DNA of 64,000 bases, taken from Pseudomonadota bacterium. GTDB taxonomy: Bacteria > Pseudomonadota > Gammaproteobacteria > Burkholderiales > JABEVD01. The notes beneath the pieces are model-generated. The model did not search any database. It was not told the origin of the DNA and saw nothing but the letters and a program-made list of their open reading frames with translations. The position numbers and the translations under genes were made by a program. Position 1 is the first letter of the stretch. Each line of letters opens with the position of its first letter. The stretch spans positions 73,308 to 137,307 of the forward strand of contig JAJZRS010000006.1 in NCBI GenBank assembly GCA_021802545.1. The letters are read 5' to 3'. Positions 13,189 to 21,228 of this stretch are shown here, in pieces.

Positions 13189-15276
13189 ATGGTTACCGTT
13201 GTTCCGCCTTTCGAGCACGCCGATCTTTCGAGCTGGATCGATTCAATCTCTTCAGGCTATGCCCCTCACGAGGTCGAGTCGATCCGCCTTGCCGCACAGT
13301 GCGCCGCAGCGCACGATGAAATCCTGCAAAACGGAGAACGCATGCTGGAGCATGCGCTGTCCTGCGCTTCAATCCTAGCAGGGATGCATATGGATTGCGA
13401 GGTGCTGCAGGCCTCCTTGCTGCTCCATTGCGGGACGGACATCGCTCCTTTCGGGGAAGGGGTTGCAGGACTCGTCGAGGGGGTTTCGAGATTTTCCTCG
13501 TTCGATGTCGAAGAGATCGTGGACCTGGAAGGCATGCGCAGGCTGCTGCTCGCGATCGTGCAGGACATCCGCGTCGTTCTCCTCAAGCTTGCCGACCAGC
13601 TCCAGAGCCTGCGCCACCTGGCCGGATGCGACAACGAGGAAGCCAGAAAAAAGGCTGCGCACAAAACGCGCGACATCTATGCGCCGCTCGCGAACCGGCT
13701 GGGCATCTGGCAGATCAAGTGGGAGCTCGAGGATCTGTCTTTCCGCATTCTCGAGCCTGTCATCTACAGGAAAATAGCAAAGCAGCTCGACGAGAAGCGC
13801 CTCGATCGTGAAAGGTTCATTGACACATCGATCATCGAACTGAAGGATGCGCTCCATCAGGCAAGCATAAGCGGCGAGATTTCCGGGCGACCGAAACACA
13901 TCTACAGCATCTACAAGAAGATGCAGCGCAAGAACCTGGGCTTCGAGGGAATTTACGACGTCAGGGCGATCAGGGTGCTGGTCGAATCGGTGAAGGACTG
14001 CTATGCCGTGCTGGGCATCGTCAACGATCTCTGGACGCCGATTCCAGGGGAATTCGACGACTACATCGCCAAGCCCAAGGAAAACGGATACAGCTCCTTG
14101 CATACCGGGGTGATCGCCTCCGAAGGAAAGGCGCTCGAAGTCCAGATCAGAACCTACGATATGCACGATGCCTCTGAAATGGGGGTGGCTGCGCATTGGC
14201 GCTACAAGGAAGGCGGGAAGCGCGACTTCAAATTCGAGGAGAAGCTCGTCTGGCTCAGGAAACTGCTCGGCTGGCGGGACGATCTGGGCGAATCGGCCAA
14301 TATCGCGACGGGGGGACTTTTCGCCGATTCGATCTACGTGCTGACGCCGCAGGGGAAGGTCATCGACCTGCCCAAGGACGCCACACCGGTCGATTTCGCC
14401 TACCATGTGCATACCGATCTGGGGCACCGTTGCCGCGGCGCGAAGGTGGACGGCGCGATCGTCCCGCTCAATACCCCATTGAAGACCGGCCAGCGCGTCG
14501 AAATCATCGCTGCGAAGCAGGGCGGCCCTAGCATGGACTGGCTCAATCCGGACCAGGGATTCGCGAAGAGCTCGAGGGCGCGCACCAAGATCAGGCAATG
14601 GTTCAACAGCAGAAATCTCGAAGCGAGCGTGGCGAGCGGACGGCATCTGGTCGAGCACGAGCTCAAGCGTTCCGGAAAGAGCGGCTTTTCCCTCGAGAAG
14701 ATGGCCGGGCATTTCGGATTTTCGAAGCTCGACGATTTCCTGGTCGAGGCGGAAAGAGGGAGTATCACACGGCGCCAGATCCACTCTTTTTTGAGGAATG
14801 ATGAACCCGAGCAGGAAAAGAAGCCTGTTCTGAGAAGCCGGGAAGCGCCGGGCGAAGTGCTGATTGTCGGCGTGGACAAGCTGCTCACCCAGCTCGGCAA
14901 ATGCTGCAGGCCAGTGCCGCCGGACGAAATCGTCGGTTTCGTGACCAAGGGCAGGGGGGTGATGATCCACAGGAAAAGCTGCGCGAACGTCGCCCATCTC
15001 GATCCGGACAGACTGCTCGATGCGGCATGGGGCGGCCCCGGCGGAAAATATGCCGCAGAGATCCACATCGAAGCCTCCGACAGGCAGGGGCTTCTTCGCG
15101 ACATATCGGATGTTCTGGCGCGGGAACGGGTCAACGTCACGGCGACCAGGACGGTGAGCAGGAAAGACAGGGCGAGCATGCGCTTCACGGTTGAAGTGTC
15201 CGACCTTGCCGAACTGCGCAAGGTGCTTGTGCTGATCGGGGATGTGAAAGGCGTGATGCAGGCATCGAGGCGATAG
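13189..15276 (+). CDS. relA: (p)ppGpp synthetase RelA
   Basis: Ribosome-associated stringent-response enzyme. The 695-residue protein has an N-terminal pseudo-hydrolase domain in which the HD-x-x-E-D metal site is replaced (LLLHCGTD), so hydrolysis should be lost. The synthetase domain follows at about residues 240-350 with the RelA-type EFDD motif (Glu288-Asp291) in EFDDYIAKPKENGYSS. TGS lies at about residues 380-440 (IYVLTPQGKVIDLP), then the Cys-rich zinc-finger region (LGKCCRPVPPDEI, HRKSCANV) and a C-terminal ACT domain. These traits distinguish RelA from SpoT. Start 13189 has no ribosome site but follows a promoter closely. Confidence 0.93.
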   Translation: MVTVVPPFEHADLSSWIDSISSGYAPHEVESIRLAAQCAAAHDEILQNGERMLEHALSCASILAGMHMDCEVLQASLLLHCGTDIAPFGEGVAGLVEGVSRFSSFDVEEIVDLEGMRRLLLAIVQDIRVVLLKLADQLQSLRHLAGCDNEEARKKAAHKTRDIYAPLANRLGIWQIKWELEDLSFRILEPVIYRKIAKQLDEKRLDRERFIDTSIIELKDALHQASISGEISGRPKHIYSIYKKMQRKNLGFEGIYDVRAIRVLVESVKDCYAVLGIVNDLWTPIPGEFDDYIAKPKENGYSSLHTGVIASEGKALEVQIRTYDMHDASEMGVAAHWRYKEGGKRDFKFEEKLVWLRKLLGWRDDLGESANIATGGLFADSIYVLTPQGKVIDLPKDATPVDFAYHVHTDLGHRCRGAKVDGAIVPLNTPLKTGQRVEIIAAKQGGPSMDWLNPDQGFAKSSRARTKIRQWFNSRNLEASVASGRHLVEHELKRSGKSGFSLEKMAGHFGFSKLDDFLVEAERGSITRRQIHSFLRNDEPEQEKKPVLRSREAPGEVLIVGVDKLLTQLGKCCRPVPPDEIVGFVTKGRGVMIHRKSCANVAHLDPDRLLDAAWGGPGGKYAAEIHIEASDRQGLLRDISDVLARERVNVTATRTVSRKDRASMRFTVEVSDLAELRKVLVLIGDVKGVMQASRR

Positions 15277-15312: not shown

Positions 15313-17499
15313 ATGGACGCTGATACCGTATACGCCAGGACCAGGAAAGGGGAGGAAGCACTCAAGGATGCTCATCTTTCCCTCGAGATGCACGACATCC
15401 TGTCCGGCATAGACGGCAAGACCAGCGCCGACCGGCTGGCTGCTTCCTCTTCGTTCCTGTCCAGAGAGACGGTCGATGCCGCCATCCGCGATTTCCTCGA
15501 ACAGGGCTACATCAAGCCGGCTTTGGAGGAGGTCGCCGAAGAAGCCGTTCCTGATGCGCACGTCGATGAGCAGGTCGAAGAGAAGGTCGAAGAAGCCCCC
15601 GCGCGCAATGTCGGAAAAAGCAAGTTTTCCCAATCGGAACGCACGTTGATCGCCAGCGTGCTTTTCCTGGACATCGTCGAATACACCAAAAAGCCGGTTT
15701 CGGAACAGTTCAAAATCAAGGAAGAGTTCAACAGGCTCGTCTCCGAGTTCGTGCAGATCATCCCCGAAGACGACCGCATCATCATCGACACGGGCGACGG
15801 CGCCGCGCTGGGCTTTCTCGCCGATCCCGAGGCCGTTCTCACGATCGCGATCAGGCTGAGGGATACCCTTGAAGCCGACGGCCACGCGGATTATCCGGGG
15901 CTTTACGTGAGGCAGGGGATCAATCTCGGGCCCATCAGGCTGGTTGCCGACATGAACGGAAGGGAGAACCTGATCGGCGACGGAGTCAACGATGCGAACA
16001 GGATCATGGGTTTTGCTCAGGGAGACCAGGTTCTGGTTTCACGCTCCTTCTACGACGTGGCGAGCCGCCTCTCGAGCGAGCATCCCAGCCTTTTCAAATA
16101 CCAGGGCATACACAAGGACAAGCACGGCAGGGAGCACGAAGTCTACGAGGTGATGGGCGGGAATCGGGCCGCGGAGGATGCGCGCAAGCAGCAGAAAACG
16201 GAGGATGAGATCCGTGCCGAGCGCATGGCGAAGATGAAGGAGAAGCTCGAGGCTGCAGCCAAGGCTGAGGCCGCAGCCAAGGCCTCAGCGGAGGCGCGCG
16301 AGTCGATCGAAGCCGAGGCGAGGCAGAAGGCCGAAACGAAAAAGGCCGCCGAGGTGAAGATCAGGCAGCCGAAAAAGAAGGGCGCAGGCAAGGCGATAGC
16401 CGTCTCGTTCATCGTCCTGGCGGCCCTGCTGCTCGGCGCGCTGCCCTTCGTGCCGCTTGGGTTTCTCGCCAAGAGCGAATCCGATTCGATTTCGCACAAG
16501 ACGGGAAAAACGGCATCCATCGGTTCGGCCTATTTTTCACTGCTGCCCACGCCGAGGATCGTGCTGAAGGACGTTTCTGCAGGCGGCATCAAAATCGAGA
16601 AAATGACCGAAGATCTTTTCGGGGCCAAGGCCATTGTCATCCATGGGGTGAAGGCGGATCAGGACGCCCTTTCAGGGCTCGCGGGCTGGAAGAATATCGC
16701 CGGCATTCTGCAATTCGAGCAAGTGTCGCTTTCCCTGGATGGAAAGCAGCTTCCGCTCTTCGACGGGGAGGTCGAGACGGGCCAGGACGGATCTTTCGGG
16801 CACGCCAGGATAGAGAGCGATGGCATGAGCGCCGATATCGCGCCTGACGATTCGGGATTCAAGATAGAGCTTGCCGCAAAGCGCTGGGCCTTGCCGATGG
16901 GTCCTTCCTGCCCGTGGGATGAACTCCATGCCAGCGCGGTCGAAAAAGGCGGCCAGGTCGACATTTCTTCCTTCAAGGCGACGGGCTACGGCGGAAGCGT
17001 TTCCGGTTCGGGCAGCATCTCGTGGAACCAGGGCTGGCGCGCCACCGCGCGCTTCAAGGGAAGCGAGCTTGAAGTCGACCAGCTGCTGCCCTATTTTTCG
17101 AAAGACGCCAAGCTTTCCGGATGGCTCAAGTTCGATGCTGCGGCATCGATGGCGTCGACGAGCCTCACCGGTCTGTTCGATTCGCCGAGCATAAACGCTG
17201 CGTTCGGGCTGCATGACGGCAAGGTTGACAATGTCGATTTCGCCCAGGCGATCAGGATGACTTCTCCCGATGGAACAAGGGGAGGGGAGACGAAATACGA
17301 TGCGCTGTCGGGGAGTCTCGCCCTGGTCGGGGGAGAATACCGTTACAGCGGTCTCAGGCTGAATTCGGGAATGATGAACGTTGCGGGAAATCTGATCGTG
17401 AAGGGCGGCAATCTTTCCGGCGCGGCGGAGGTGTCACTTGCCCAGATTCGTTCTGCGCTGACGCTTTCCGGCAGCCTGGCGTCCCCCGTTATCCGCTGA
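15313..17499 (+). CDS. Class III nucleotide cyclase domain fused through a transmembrane segment to an AsmA-like domain
   Basis: A 728-residue fusion. Residues about 1-75 look like a small helical domain (YARTRKGEEAL). Residues about 112-280 form a class III adenylate/guanylate cyclase domain: metal aspartates in LFLDIVEYTK and IDTGDGAALGF, and the Asn-Arg pair in VNDANRIM are retained, so activity is plausible. An Ala/Lys/Glu coiled coil (about 285-355) leads to one transmembrane helix (about 358-380). The remaining ~340 residues resemble the C-terminal beta-rich part of AsmA-like envelope proteins (GSGSISWNQGW, LNSGMMNVAGNLIVKGG). Topology implies a cytoplasmic cyclase and periplasmic AsmA part. 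Nucleotide specificity is not certain. Confidence 0.75.
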   Translation: MDADTVYARTRKGEEALKDAHLSLEMHDILSGIDGKTSADRLAASSSFLSRETVDAAIRDFLEQGYIKPALEEVAEEAVPDAHVDEQVEEKVEEAPARNVGKSKFSQSERTLIASVLFLDIVEYTKKPVSEQFKIKEEFNRLVSEFVQIIPEDDRIIIDTGDGAALGFLADPEAVLTIAIRLRDTLEADGHADYPGLYVRQGINLGPIRLVADMNGRENLIGDGVNDANRIMGFAQGDQVLVSRSFYDVASRLSSEHPSLFKYQGIHKDKHGREHEVYEVMGGNRAAEDARKQQKTEDEIRAERMAKMKEKLEAAAKAEAAAKASAEARESIEAEARQKAETKKAAEVKIRQPKKKGAGKAIAVSFIVLAALLLGALPFVPLGFLAKSESDSISHKTGKTASIGSAYFSLLPTPRIVLKDVSAGGIKIEKMTEDLFGAKAIVIHGVKADQDALSGLAGWKNIAGILQFEQVSLSLDGKQLPLFDGEVETGQDGSFGHARIESDGMSADIAPDDSGFKIELAAKRWALPMGPSCPWDELHASAVEKGGQVDISSFKATGYGGSVSGSGSISWNQGWRATARFKGSELEVDQLLPYFSKDAKLSGWLKFDAAASMASTSLTGLFDSPSINAAFGLHDGKVDNVDFAQAIRMTSPDGTRGGETKYDALSGSLALVGGEYRYSGLRLNSGMMNVAGNLIVKGGNLSGAAEVSLAQIRSALTLSGSLASPVIR

Positions 17500-17994
17500 A
17501 AGATAAGCCGTGATTTCCGCGTGTACAGCCTTTTCGGCGGGGTCATAGAGGAAATTGTTGGGATCGAACGCCCTGGCAAGCATGCCGAGCGCGACGAAAT
17601 AGACCATCCCGATCAGCGCGCCATTCCAGTAGCCCATGAAAACATCGGCGATCGCTGCGATCGTGCCGCACGCATGCAGCACGACGGCAGCCCTGCCGAA
17701 ATCCTTGGCGGCTGCGGGCATCGTATAGTAATGGCCGTATTTCTCGAGCATGATGTTGGCTGCATCCGAAAGCTTTTTCGAGCGCATGTCCTTTTTCTTC
17801 GACTTGAGGCCGGAAAGCGGAATGAGCAGCAGCATTGCGGCGAGAACCAGCGTCGCCCAGCTCCAGGTCTTGGAAAAATAGAGGGCGCCCAGGGATATTG
17901 CGCCGATAGCGAGCGATATGGCGAAAAACATCCGCGAACTATGCCAGAGGCTCCAAAAGACGTCAATTGCCTGGAACCGAAGGCTCGCTGACAT
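17434..17994 (-). CDS. Predicted inner-membrane protein of unknown function
   Basis: A 186-residue protein with about four hydrophobic segments: FFAISLAIGAISLGALYF, WATLVLAAMLLLIPLSG, VVLHACGTIAAIADVFMG and LIGMVYFVALGMLARA. A Lys/Arg-rich loop follows the second. I do not recognise the family. Its 3' end overlaps the end of the cyclase-AsmA gene by 66 bases on the opposite strand, encoding a basic tail (RQAAGKRQRRTNLGK). ATG 17994 or an internal Met at residue 22 could be the start. Confidence 0.65.
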   Translation of the reverse strand: MSASLRFQAIDVFWSLWHSSRMFFAISLAIGAISLGALYFSKTWSWATLVLAAMLLLIPLSGLKSKKKDMRSKKLSDAANIMLEKYGHYYTMPAAAKDFGRAAVVLHACGTIAAIADVFMGYWNGALIGMVYFVALGMLARAFDPNNFLYDPAEKAVHAEITAYLSADNGGRQAAGKRQRRTNLGK

Positions 17995-18102: not shown

Positions 18103-21100
18103 ATGATCGTTGCCTGTTTGTACATGATCGCCGGTATCGTGGCTTACGCTTCGATACACCACTTCGCCATCGCATTCAAATCCCCGAGAAAATCGTTACA
18201 GCTGCTCTTCGCCGTCATGTGCGCGCTTTCGGTCGTTTTCGCCATGTTTCAGGCGCTCAATATGCGGTCAGCCAATGTCGCCGAATTCGCCGATACGCTC
18301 AGGATCAATCTTGCCGCCATCCTGCTCTTCCTGACCATCCTCCCGTGGTTCATCGGGCTTTATGCCGGGAACATGAAAATGCCCGTGATGGCCGGCCTGA
18401 GCCTGTTTTTTGCCGTGCTCACCCTGGCCAATTTCGCGCTGCCCGCCACGCTCCAGTACAGCCATATCGACGGGATATACACCCAGAATCTGCCCTGGGG
18501 AGAAGCCGTCACGCGCGCGAATGGGGAAAAGGGGGTCTGGTCCTACATTGCGTTTTTCGGCTTCGCAGTCGAATTCGGCTACGTGATGTATACCCTGGGT
18601 GCCGTATACCGCGCAGAACAGCGCCGGGAAGATTTCTGGATGTTCGTCGCATTCCTGATCCTGCTTGGATCCATGCTTGAAGGGATACTGGTGCGATGGC
18701 AGATGATCAATTTCATCGAAACAGGTCCGCTGGGCTTCCTGGCTACGGTGATCGTCATGAGTGTGGCGCTGACGAGCGAAATGCTGCAGAGAATGCGCGC
18801 ATCCGAAAGCAACTTCCGCTCGCTCTTCGACAATTCTCCAACGGCCATCCTGGCAGTCGATTCGGAGAACCATCGCATCGTGCAAGCCAATGACATTGCG
18901 GTTGAAATGTTCGGCTACAGTTTCGCTGAAATGCTCAAGAAATCGTTCGACGATTTGACGGGGCAGGATACGCCCGACGTTCAGGAATGCTTCCAAAACT
19001 ATGAGCTGCTTTCAAAAGGCGTGGTCAAGTACCTCTACTGCGAGAAGACATTCAGAAGAAAGGACGGAAGCAGCTTCACAGCGCTCGTTTCGTCTTCTTC
19101 GCTCAGGAATGAAGAGGGAACGGCGCTGCGTTTCATCCACAGTCTGGTCGACATCACGAAGCAAAAGCAGGCGATCAGCGCACTGCAGGAAAGCGAAATC
19201 AGATTCAGGACCATCATCGAACAGTCGCCGATCGGGCTGGTGCTCGGCCGGGACGGGGTCATCGTGGAAGCGAATGACGTGTTTCTGCAAATGTACGGAT
19301 ACGGGAATGTTTCAGAAGTGCTCGGGCAGCCGATCATCAGCCATATCGCTCCCCAGTGCAGGACGGAGGTCGAAGAGCGAATCAGGCGAAGGGCATTGGG
19401 CGAGGATACGGAGCCTTCCTATGAAACAGTCGGATTGCGCGCGGATGGTTCGCAGTTTCCCGTGCATATATCGGCCAGACGCGTGGAATTGGAAGACGGT
19501 CCCATGACATGCGCCTTCGAAATCGACATCACGGCGCGCAAAAATGCGGAAGCCGATCTGCGCATTGCCGCCATTGCGCTCGAATCCAATGAAGGCATGC
19601 TCATCGCGGACGCGCAAAACGTGATCCTGAAGGTCAACCGCTCATTCAGCGAAATCACAGGTTATTCGGCCGAGGAGGTCATCGGCCGGAATCCGCACAT
19701 CCTGAGCTCTGGGCTCCAGGACGCCGAGTTTTATGCGACGATGTGGAAAAGCCTGAAGGATGTCGGCGTCTGGGAAGGGGAAATCTGGAACCGCAGAAAG
19801 AACGGGGAAATCTATCCCGAGCGGCTCACCGTCACGGCAGTGAAGGACGCTGCGGGCAACGTCACGAACTATGTCGCCGCTTTCACCGACATTACCGAGA
19901 GCATGGCTGCGGCGGAAAAGATCAACCATCTCGCCTTCTACGACCATCTCACCGAACTGCCGAACCAGAAACTCCTCATGGACCGTTTGCACCAGGCCCT
20001 GGCTTCCAGTTCGCGGAATGGCCGGCATGGCGCAGTGCTTTTCATCGATCTGAACGATTTCAAATCGCTCAACGACACCTTGGGTCATGCCACCGGAGAT
20101 GCCGTGCTCAAGCAGGTTGCGCTTCGTCTGTCCGATATCGTCAGGAAGGGCGACACCGTCTCGCGTTTCGGCGGAGACGAGTTCGTGGTGATACTGGATG
20201 GATTGAGCAGTTCTTCACTGGAAGCCGCCGAGCAGACCGAGGCGGCATGCAGCAAGATATTTTCTGCAATGCAGCGCCCCATTCAGCTTGGCGCGCATGA
20301 ATATCAGTGCTCCATCTCCGTCGGAGCGACGCTTTTCGGAAAATCCGAGCAGTCCATCGAAGAACTGCTCAAGCAGGCGGACATCGCGCTTCATCACGCA
20401 AAGCGCGCAGAAAGAAATTCGCTGCGCTTCTTCGACCGCAGAATGCAGGAAGTGCTCGATTCAAGAACGGCGCTCGAAAGCGAGCTTCACCAGGCTGTCA
20501 AGACAAGGCAGTTTTCCCTGTACTACCAGATCCAGATGCACAGTTCCGGTTATCCAGTCGGCGCCGAAGCCTTGATCCGCTGGCACCACCCCGAGCGAGG
20601 CATCATCACGCCTTCCCAATTCATACCGCTTGCGGAGGAAATGGATCTGATCCTGCCGATTGGAGAATGGGTGATCGAATCGGCCTGTTCGAAGATCAAG
20701 GAATGGGAGAAGGATGTTGCGAAACGCGAACTCGTCATGTCCGTGAATATCAGCGCAAAACAGCTTCATCTGCCCGACTTCGCAGCCCAGATGATCGATG
20801 CGGTGAAACGGCACGGCATCGACCCGCGGAAGCTCAAGCTCGAAATCACAGAAAGCATGCTGCTCGAAAATATCGAGACGACGATCAGCGTCATGAATGA
20901 GCTGAGGAAAGCAGGTCTGCGTTTTTCTCTCGACGATTTCGGGACGGGCTATTCCTCCCTCCAGTACCTCAAGATGCTGCCGCTCGACCAGCTGAAGATA
21001 GACCAATCCTTCATTCGGGATATCGTCACCGATGGAAACGACCAGGCCATCGTGCGCACCATCATCGCAATGTCCAAGAGCCTGAATCTCGATGTCATTG

Positions 21101-21228
21101 CGGAAGGCGTGGAAACGCCTGAACAGCAAAGGTTTCTCGAGGCATGCGGATGCAACCACTATCAGGGATATCTTTTCGGCAAGCCGTCAAGTCAGGAAAT
21201 TTTCGATACTGCGTGCTTATGCAGGTGA
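18103..21228 (+). CDS. Membrane 7TM-PAS-PAS-PAS-GGDEF-EAL cyclic-di-GMP protein
   Basis: A 1041-residue sensor that can make and/or break c-di-GMP. Residues 1-230 hold about seven transmembrane helices. Three PAS domains follow (around 245-365, 370-485 and 490-610; hallmarks VDITKQKQ, IDITARKN and TDITESMA). The GGDEF motif is intact at residues 690-694 (RFGGDEFVVILDG). The EAL domain has E822-A-L in EALIRWHHP plus VNISAKQL, LEITESM, LDDFGTGYSSL and AEGVETPEQ, so all usual catalytic residues are present. Either activity could dominate. It stands alone before the tRNA-Val gene; no target operon is obvious. Confidence 0.93.
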   Translation: MIVACLYMIAGIVAYASIHHFAIAFKSPRKSLQLLFAVMCALSVVFAMFQALNMRSANVAEFADTLRINLAAILLFLTILPWFIGLYAGNMKMPVMAGLSLFFAVLTLANFALPATLQYSHIDGIYTQNLPWGEAVTRANGEKGVWSYIAFFGFAVEFGYVMYTLGAVYRAEQRREDFWMFVAFLILLGSMLEGILVRWQMINFIETGPLGFLATVIVMSVALTSEMLQRMRASESNFRSLFDNSPTAILAVDSENHRIVQANDIAVEMFGYSFAEMLKKSFDDLTGQDTPDVQECFQNYELLSKGVVKYLYCEKTFRRKDGSSFTALVSSSSLRNEEGTALRFIHSLVDITKQKQAISALQESEIRFRTIIEQSPIGLVLGRDGVIVEANDVFLQMYGYGNVSEVLGQPIISHIAPQCRTEVEERIRRRALGEDTEPSYETVGLRADGSQFPVHISARRVELEDGPMTCAFEIDITARKNAEADLRIAAIALESNEGMLIADAQNVILKVNRSFSEITGYSAEEVIGRNPHILSSGLQDAEFYATMWKSLKDVGVWEGEIWNRRKNGEIYPERLTVTAVKDAAGNVTNYVAAFTDITESMAAAEKINHLAFYDHLTELPNQKLLMDRLHQALASSSRNGRHGAVLFIDLNDFKSLNDTLGHATGDAVLKQVALRLSDIVRKGDTVSRFGGDEFVVILDGLSSSSLEAAEQTEAACSKIFSAMQRPIQLGAHEYQCSISVGATLFGKSEQSIEELLKQADIALHHAKRAERNSLRFFDRRMQEVLDSRTALESELHQAVKTRQFSLYYQIQMHSSGYPVGAEALIRWHHPERGIITPSQFIPLAEEMDLILPIGEWVIESACSKIKEWEKDVAKRELVMSVNISAKQLHLPDFAAQMIDAVKRHGIDPRKLKLEITESMLLENIETTISVMNELRKAGLRFSLDDFGTGYSSLQYLKMLPLDQLKIDQSFIRDIVTDGNDQAIVRTIIAMSKSLNLDVIAEGVETPEQQRFLEACGCNHYQGYLFGKPSSQEIFDTACLCR

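Follow-up and report, generated by a model that had tools for sequence, protein, structure and literature searches.

A conserved fusion of a class III nucleotide cyclase with an AsmA-like domain across one transmembrane helix

The window analyzed here is a 64,000-nt stretch of contig JAJZRS010000006.1 (assembly GCA_021802545.1, positions 73,308 to 137,307 of the forward strand) from a Pseudomonadota bacterium of the order Burkholderiales. An ATG-initiated open reading frame exactly covering positions 15313-17499 (+) encodes a 728-aa protein, in which an N-terminal domain and a class III cyclase domain are followed by a long helix, a transmembrane (TM) helix and an AsmA-like domain (Table 1). 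In each of the nine genomes of the window's genus, the gene directly upstream is relA on the same strand, and this adjacency was seen in none of the other lineages that carry the fusion. The 3′-end is overlapped by a small convergent ORF in every genus genome whose flank reaches there. Between this small ORF and thrS, the window also has a PAS-GGDEF-EAL gene (18103-21228, +), while no such gene was seen there in the five genus relatives with flanks reaching thrS.

Table 1. Features of the fusion locus and of the encoded protein (positions in the window)
Feature	Position	Strand	Evidence
relA/spoT-type (p)ppGpp synthetase gene, 36 bp upstream of the fusion gene	13189..15276	+	Pfam, synteny
Fusion gene, 728 aa (N-domain, class III cyclase, helix, TM, AsmA-like domain)	15313..17499	+	ORF, Pfam, orthologues
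N-terminal domain, residues 1-72, winged-helix-like	15313..15528	+	AlphaFold2; common to cyclase-less Burkholderiales long-helix AsmA-like proteins
Class III nucleotide cyclase domain, residues 105-285	15625..16167	+	Pfam PF00211, Foldseek to Rv1900c, structure alignment to Ma1120
D120, first metal aspartate	15670..15672	+	43/43 fused cyclases
I158 at the canonical base-recognizing Lys position	15784..15786	+	Alignment to Ma1120; Ile or Leu throughout
D162, second metal aspartate (GDG)	15796..15798	+	43/43 fused cyclases
N219 at the canonical base-recognizing Asp position	15967..15969	+	43/43 fused cyclases
N226...R230, transition-state Asn-Arg pair	15988..16002	+	43/43 fused cyclases
Long charged helix between cyclase and membrane, residues 284-350	16162..16362	+	AlphaFold2, composition
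TM helix, residues 362-379, preceded by KIRQPKKK (N-terminus inside)	16396..16449	+	AlphaFold2, hydropathy
AsmA-like periplasmic domain, residues 383-728 (~345 aa)	16459..17496	+	Pfam AsmA, AlphaFold2
Small convergent ORF, 186-aa predicted membrane protein, overlapping the fusion 3′-end by 66 bp	17434..17994	-	No Pfam match

To define the architecture, the protein was modeled by AlphaFold2 in two parts. The model of residues 1-390 (39 sequences, pLDDT 86) shows the N-domain and the cyclase, followed by an uninterrupted helix at 284-350, and in that of residues 361-728 (35 sequences, pLDDT 87) the TM helix leads through a short helix into an all-beta domain. The topology proposed in the initial annotation, with the cyclase inside, one TM helix and an AsmA-family region outside, is thus borne out by Pfam, AlphaFold2 and the fold searches. 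The linker that it had named a coiled coil is predicted as a single continuous helix, and this feature is not conserved beyond the genus. It had also missed the N-terminal domain of about 70 residues, which has the sequence MDxxTVYxRTxKGEEx...DGKTS... and serves as the signature of a wider AsmA-like family. No Pfam winged-helix-turn-helix match was obtained for this domain in the window copy and only sub-cut-off matches were found in relatives, and the fold-search results were occupied by cyclase matches. In membrane cyclases, the sensor usually lies N-terminal to the cyclase; the fusion protein shows the opposite order of cyclase, TM helix and periplasmic domain, and is therefore unlike the receptor type, in which an N-terminal sensor and a TM helix precede the cyclase.

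The cyclase assignment is based on both profile and fold. Pfam Guanylate_cyc (PF00211) matched residues 112-253 with 23.4 bits (curated cut-off 21.9), and the score reached 34.3 bits in relatives. The cyclase model matched Rv1900c in Foldseek (E 4e-12) and was superimposed on Ma1120 (5d0e) over 159 residues with a Z of 21.7 and an rmsd of 1.9 (VIA-align). The fold and the metal aspartates are common to these two class III enzymes and the fusion cyclase, and the Asn-Arg pair is likewise present in most class III cyclases. All of D120, D162, N226 and R230 are kept in 43/43 distinct fused cyclases, among which the metal, transition-state and loop residues do not vary; the retention noted at first in a single copy therefore extends to the homologues, where a loss of these residues would have told against the first reading. 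By these intact residues, the fusion protein is predicted to be a catalytically competent class III cyclase tethered to the inner membrane. In contrast to Rv1900c and Ma1120, it has its periplasmic domain C-terminal of the catalytic domain, and carries Ile/Leu158 and Asn219 at the base site, as found in 43/43 fused and nearly every unfused cyclase. The canonical base-recognizing residues are Lys and Asp (or Thr) (PMC4215837), and the pair of an ATP-specific adenylyl cyclase is thus absent from the fused cyclases. Because of this replacement, the base is not predictable and the product cannot be called cAMP. Four unfused relatives (L087, L091, L092 and L093) are without one or two of D120, D162 and N226 and are possible pseudo-cyclases. 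A Pycsar cyclase (PycC) was also considered and rejected, as PADLOC gave no match for the window protein and matched one relative only at E 0.0058.

The C-terminal ~340 residues, described initially as AsmA-like, can be firmly assigned to the AsmA family by profile matches. Pfam AsmA (PF05170) matched residues 532-654 of the window copy with 37.5 bits (cut-off 29.8, E 1.7e-9), and among the alignment members AsmA was matched in 35/35 (E<0.01; 39.3 bits for the window copy) and its clan partner YhdP (PF13116) in 23/35, so the possibility that this region belongs elsewhere, on which the first reading could have failed, found no support. This membership rests on the Pfam profiles, since the sequence search of the AsmA part against solved structures returned no matches and hhalign gave only a weak match to E. 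coli AsmA on its own (probability 4, E 0.0095). As for its structure, which the initial annotation had proposed to predict and search, the modeled domain is all-beta, and the PDB matches are middling. The best Foldseek match among solved structures was Vps13 (E 0.011), and in the structure search Vps13 (Z 6.7), Atg2 (6.6) and LPD-3 (8.3) appeared among porins of equal Z. Because of this mixture with porins, the fold evidence is only suggestive of a lipid-groove kinship with Vps13, Atg2 and TamB.

The AsmA-like clan (AsmA, YhdP, TamB and YdbH; PF05170, PF13116) is characterized by an N-terminal TM helix followed by a periplasmic beta-rich domain, and AlphaFold2, hydropathy and basic residues all indicate the same arrangement in the fusion, with a single N-in TM helix. 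The Chorein-N start of AsmA and TamB consists of a short helix and strands (PMC6791001), in agreement with those predicted right after the TM helix of the fusion. Two differences from the clan were found: the large cytoplasmic extension with the cyclase, and the periplasmic length, which is ~345 residues compared with 617 in E. coli AsmA, >1,200 in TamB and YhdP, and 1276 in the YhdP homologue PA4476 of P. aeruginosa. PA2708, another short AsmA-like protein, was judged probably too short for spanning the periplasm (PMC10900882). Further AsmA-family open frames of 572, 1032 and 1279 aa are encoded in the window's own genome, which indicates that the fusion does not replace them. Given its short length and these longer proteins elsewhere in the genome, the AsmA part itself probably does not serve as a lipid bridge.

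The distribution of the fusion, a check proposed at the outset, was found to be genus-wide and to extend to Gallionellaceae/Nitrosomonadales and one other family. We scanned 399 genomes of the order, scoring two candidates per genome, so that the counts are a lower bound, and also the contigs of named genomes, in which a single-protein query gave nothing and an alignment query recovered fusions. Every one of the nine genomes of the window's genus carries the fusion, and in one of the eight others it is divided between two contigs. Outside the genus, it occurs in one genome from another family (L082/L115) and in many genomes of Gallionella, Ferrigenium, Sideroxydans and Nitrosomonadales, with iron-oxidizing Gallionella among them. 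Full-length genus orthologues share 51-60% identity, which rules out both a chance ORF and an assembly join. The fusion is real and conserved. Within the genus, identity to the window copy is 73-80% in the cyclase and 43-54% in the AsmA part, and this higher identity of the cyclase is what selection on an enzyme would be expected to produce. Fusions of the Gallionellaceae/Nitrosomonadales and the other family are usually 1040-1400 aa, with a long helix ahead of the cyclase. The N-domain and helix are retained by most fusions; a Gallionella member (L108) has lost the N-domain and retained both the cyclase and the AsmA-like part.

Relatives of the two halves point to a possible origin of the fusion. 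Other families of the Burkholderiales contain cyclase-less proteins of 750-1675 aa, which agree with the fusion in the N-domain, the AsmA-like region and the TM helix before it but differ in having a much longer charged helix. Extremely long charged cytoplasmic helices were also observed in the AsmA-like family members L050, L039 and L123, in proteins of up to 1724 aa. For the other half, the widespread cyclase-TM-PEGA proteins of the order have a cyclase that is ~50-57% identical to that of the fusion and shares its unusual residues at the base site, and this cyclase is followed by one TM helix and a C-terminal envelope-type domain, here PEGA-like; they differ in the absence of the N-domain and the AsmA-like domain, in GDGINV in place of GDGxND, and in falling outside the fused clade. 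No described function was found for them in the literature. The window protein combines the N-domain/long-helix/TM/AsmA-like backbone, which is widespread in Burkholderiales, with a cyclase akin to the cyclase-TM-PEGA family; this cyclase lies in the cytoplasmic portion of the backbone and may have been inserted there. Unfused cyclase relatives carry PEGA-like or TonB_C domains after one TM helix, so that one cyclase is used modularly with three envelope-type domains, AsmA-like, PEGA-like and TonB_C. The TonB_C domain (PF03544, E 3.8e-14) was observed after the TM helix of a cyclase relative at L088:4157-5593 (-).

In the cyclase tree, the 43 fused sequences form one clade (support 100/96), and GDGxND is found in 41/43 of them, compared with mostly GDGINV in unfused cyclases. 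The AsmA tree does not unite the fused rows in one clade, and a constraint holding them together was rejected (p 4e-8). A family member without cyclase, L048, is placed inside the Gallionellaceae rows of this tree, which indicates that the AsmA part can work without the cyclase. When L048 was treated as a cyclase loss in a thinned set, a single fused clade was no longer rejected (p 0.26); a single fusion followed by loss is therefore possible, the alternative being that the cyclase moved from one AsmA backbone to another.

How a signal might pass between the two sides depends largely on the linker. Within the genus, the cyclase-to-membrane linker is helix-rich and 76-85 residues long, with a helix of ~66 residues in the window protein, whereas outside the genus it spans 131-233 residues with 8-21% Pro+Gly. 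As the helical linker is peculiar to the genus, rigid signaling across the membrane has no general support, and since the periplasmic part is also short compared with characterized lipid bridges, lever-like transmission is disfavored; control by dimerization or clustering, or plain tethering, fits better.

We infer that the fusion protein makes a cyclic mononucleotide at the membrane and that its activity is set by the envelope part, most simply through dimerization or clustering of the AsmA-like domain. In Gallionellaceae, the partner could be the product of an AsmA-family gene found 24-67 bp upstream of the fusion on the same strand at 12 loci. This reading as a whole, a membrane-tethered cyclase inserted into an AsmA-like backbone with envelope-set activity, has in our judgment about an even chance of being correct. 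Against it speak the Pro/Gly-rich linkers outside the genus, the place C-terminal to the cyclase that the sensor would take, and L048 with its cyclase-less AsmA part. The sensing of the envelope or of lipids, suggested at first from the topology, is a reasonable hypothesis.

A different account, in which the AsmA-like part is an anchor or has an envelope job of its own and the cyclase is controlled from the cytoplasm via the N-domain and long helix with no transmembrane signal, seems to us less likely, though plausible. It agrees with the flexible membrane linkers of most relatives, with the N-domain and helix kept in most fusions and with the cyclase-less backbone in many genomes; however, the partners of the cyclase are only single-TM, envelope-type C-terminal domains, and L108 without the N-domain still joins a cyclase to an AsmA-like part. 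A bolder form of envelope control, that the periplasmic domain acts as a lipid groove directly reporting lipid supply or outer-membrane state and switches the inner-face cyclase to make a cyclic nucleotide of unusual base, is unlikely; if true, a single protein would connect lipid traffic in the envelope to second-messenger signaling.

Signaling could also run inside-out, with the cyclase domain sensing a nucleotide or product and tuning the AsmA-like domain, and hence envelope lipid handling, by the energy or stringent state, as a regulator first and an enzyme second. The wide occurrence of the AsmA-like backbone without cyclase and the upstream relA across the genus would suit this, yet catalytic residues kept in 43/43 are more than a pure sensor needs and relA is not adjacent in the other lineages, which makes it quite improbable. 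We consider it very improbable that the cyclase domain is a degenerate, inactive dimerization module: the replaced base-recognizing Lys and Asp in every fused member speak for it, but none of the metal, transition-state and loop residues varies and the predicted fold is intact (Z 21.7). A chance or artefactual joining of two genes can practically be dismissed, as dozens of independent contigs, belonging to several lineages, carry the same fusion.

The initial annotation knew of no described system of this kind, and likewise the literature searched, which mostly did not reach subscription papers, gave no description of a cyclase-AsmA fusion. Class III cyclases occur in 746 architectures in Pfam (PMC4886424), and with hundreds of architectures known, a new partner alone does not make a new kind of system. 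How Gram-negative bacteria sense the lipid supply to the outer membrane is an open question, and the fusion gives one protein on which it can be tested.

The cyclic nucleotide would act through a cNMP-binding regulator, and several such regulators are encoded in the genome. A search of the window's own genome for CRP-family effectors, as suggested initially, yielded 11 cNMP-binding places, including one CRP-like protein with a GE..RSA pocket motif and an HTH. Five further matches to the cyclase family were found in the same genome. Another cyclase gene also lies there ~2 kb from a stand-alone cNMP-binding gene (L003 and L076, G000:C32:45537-48446).
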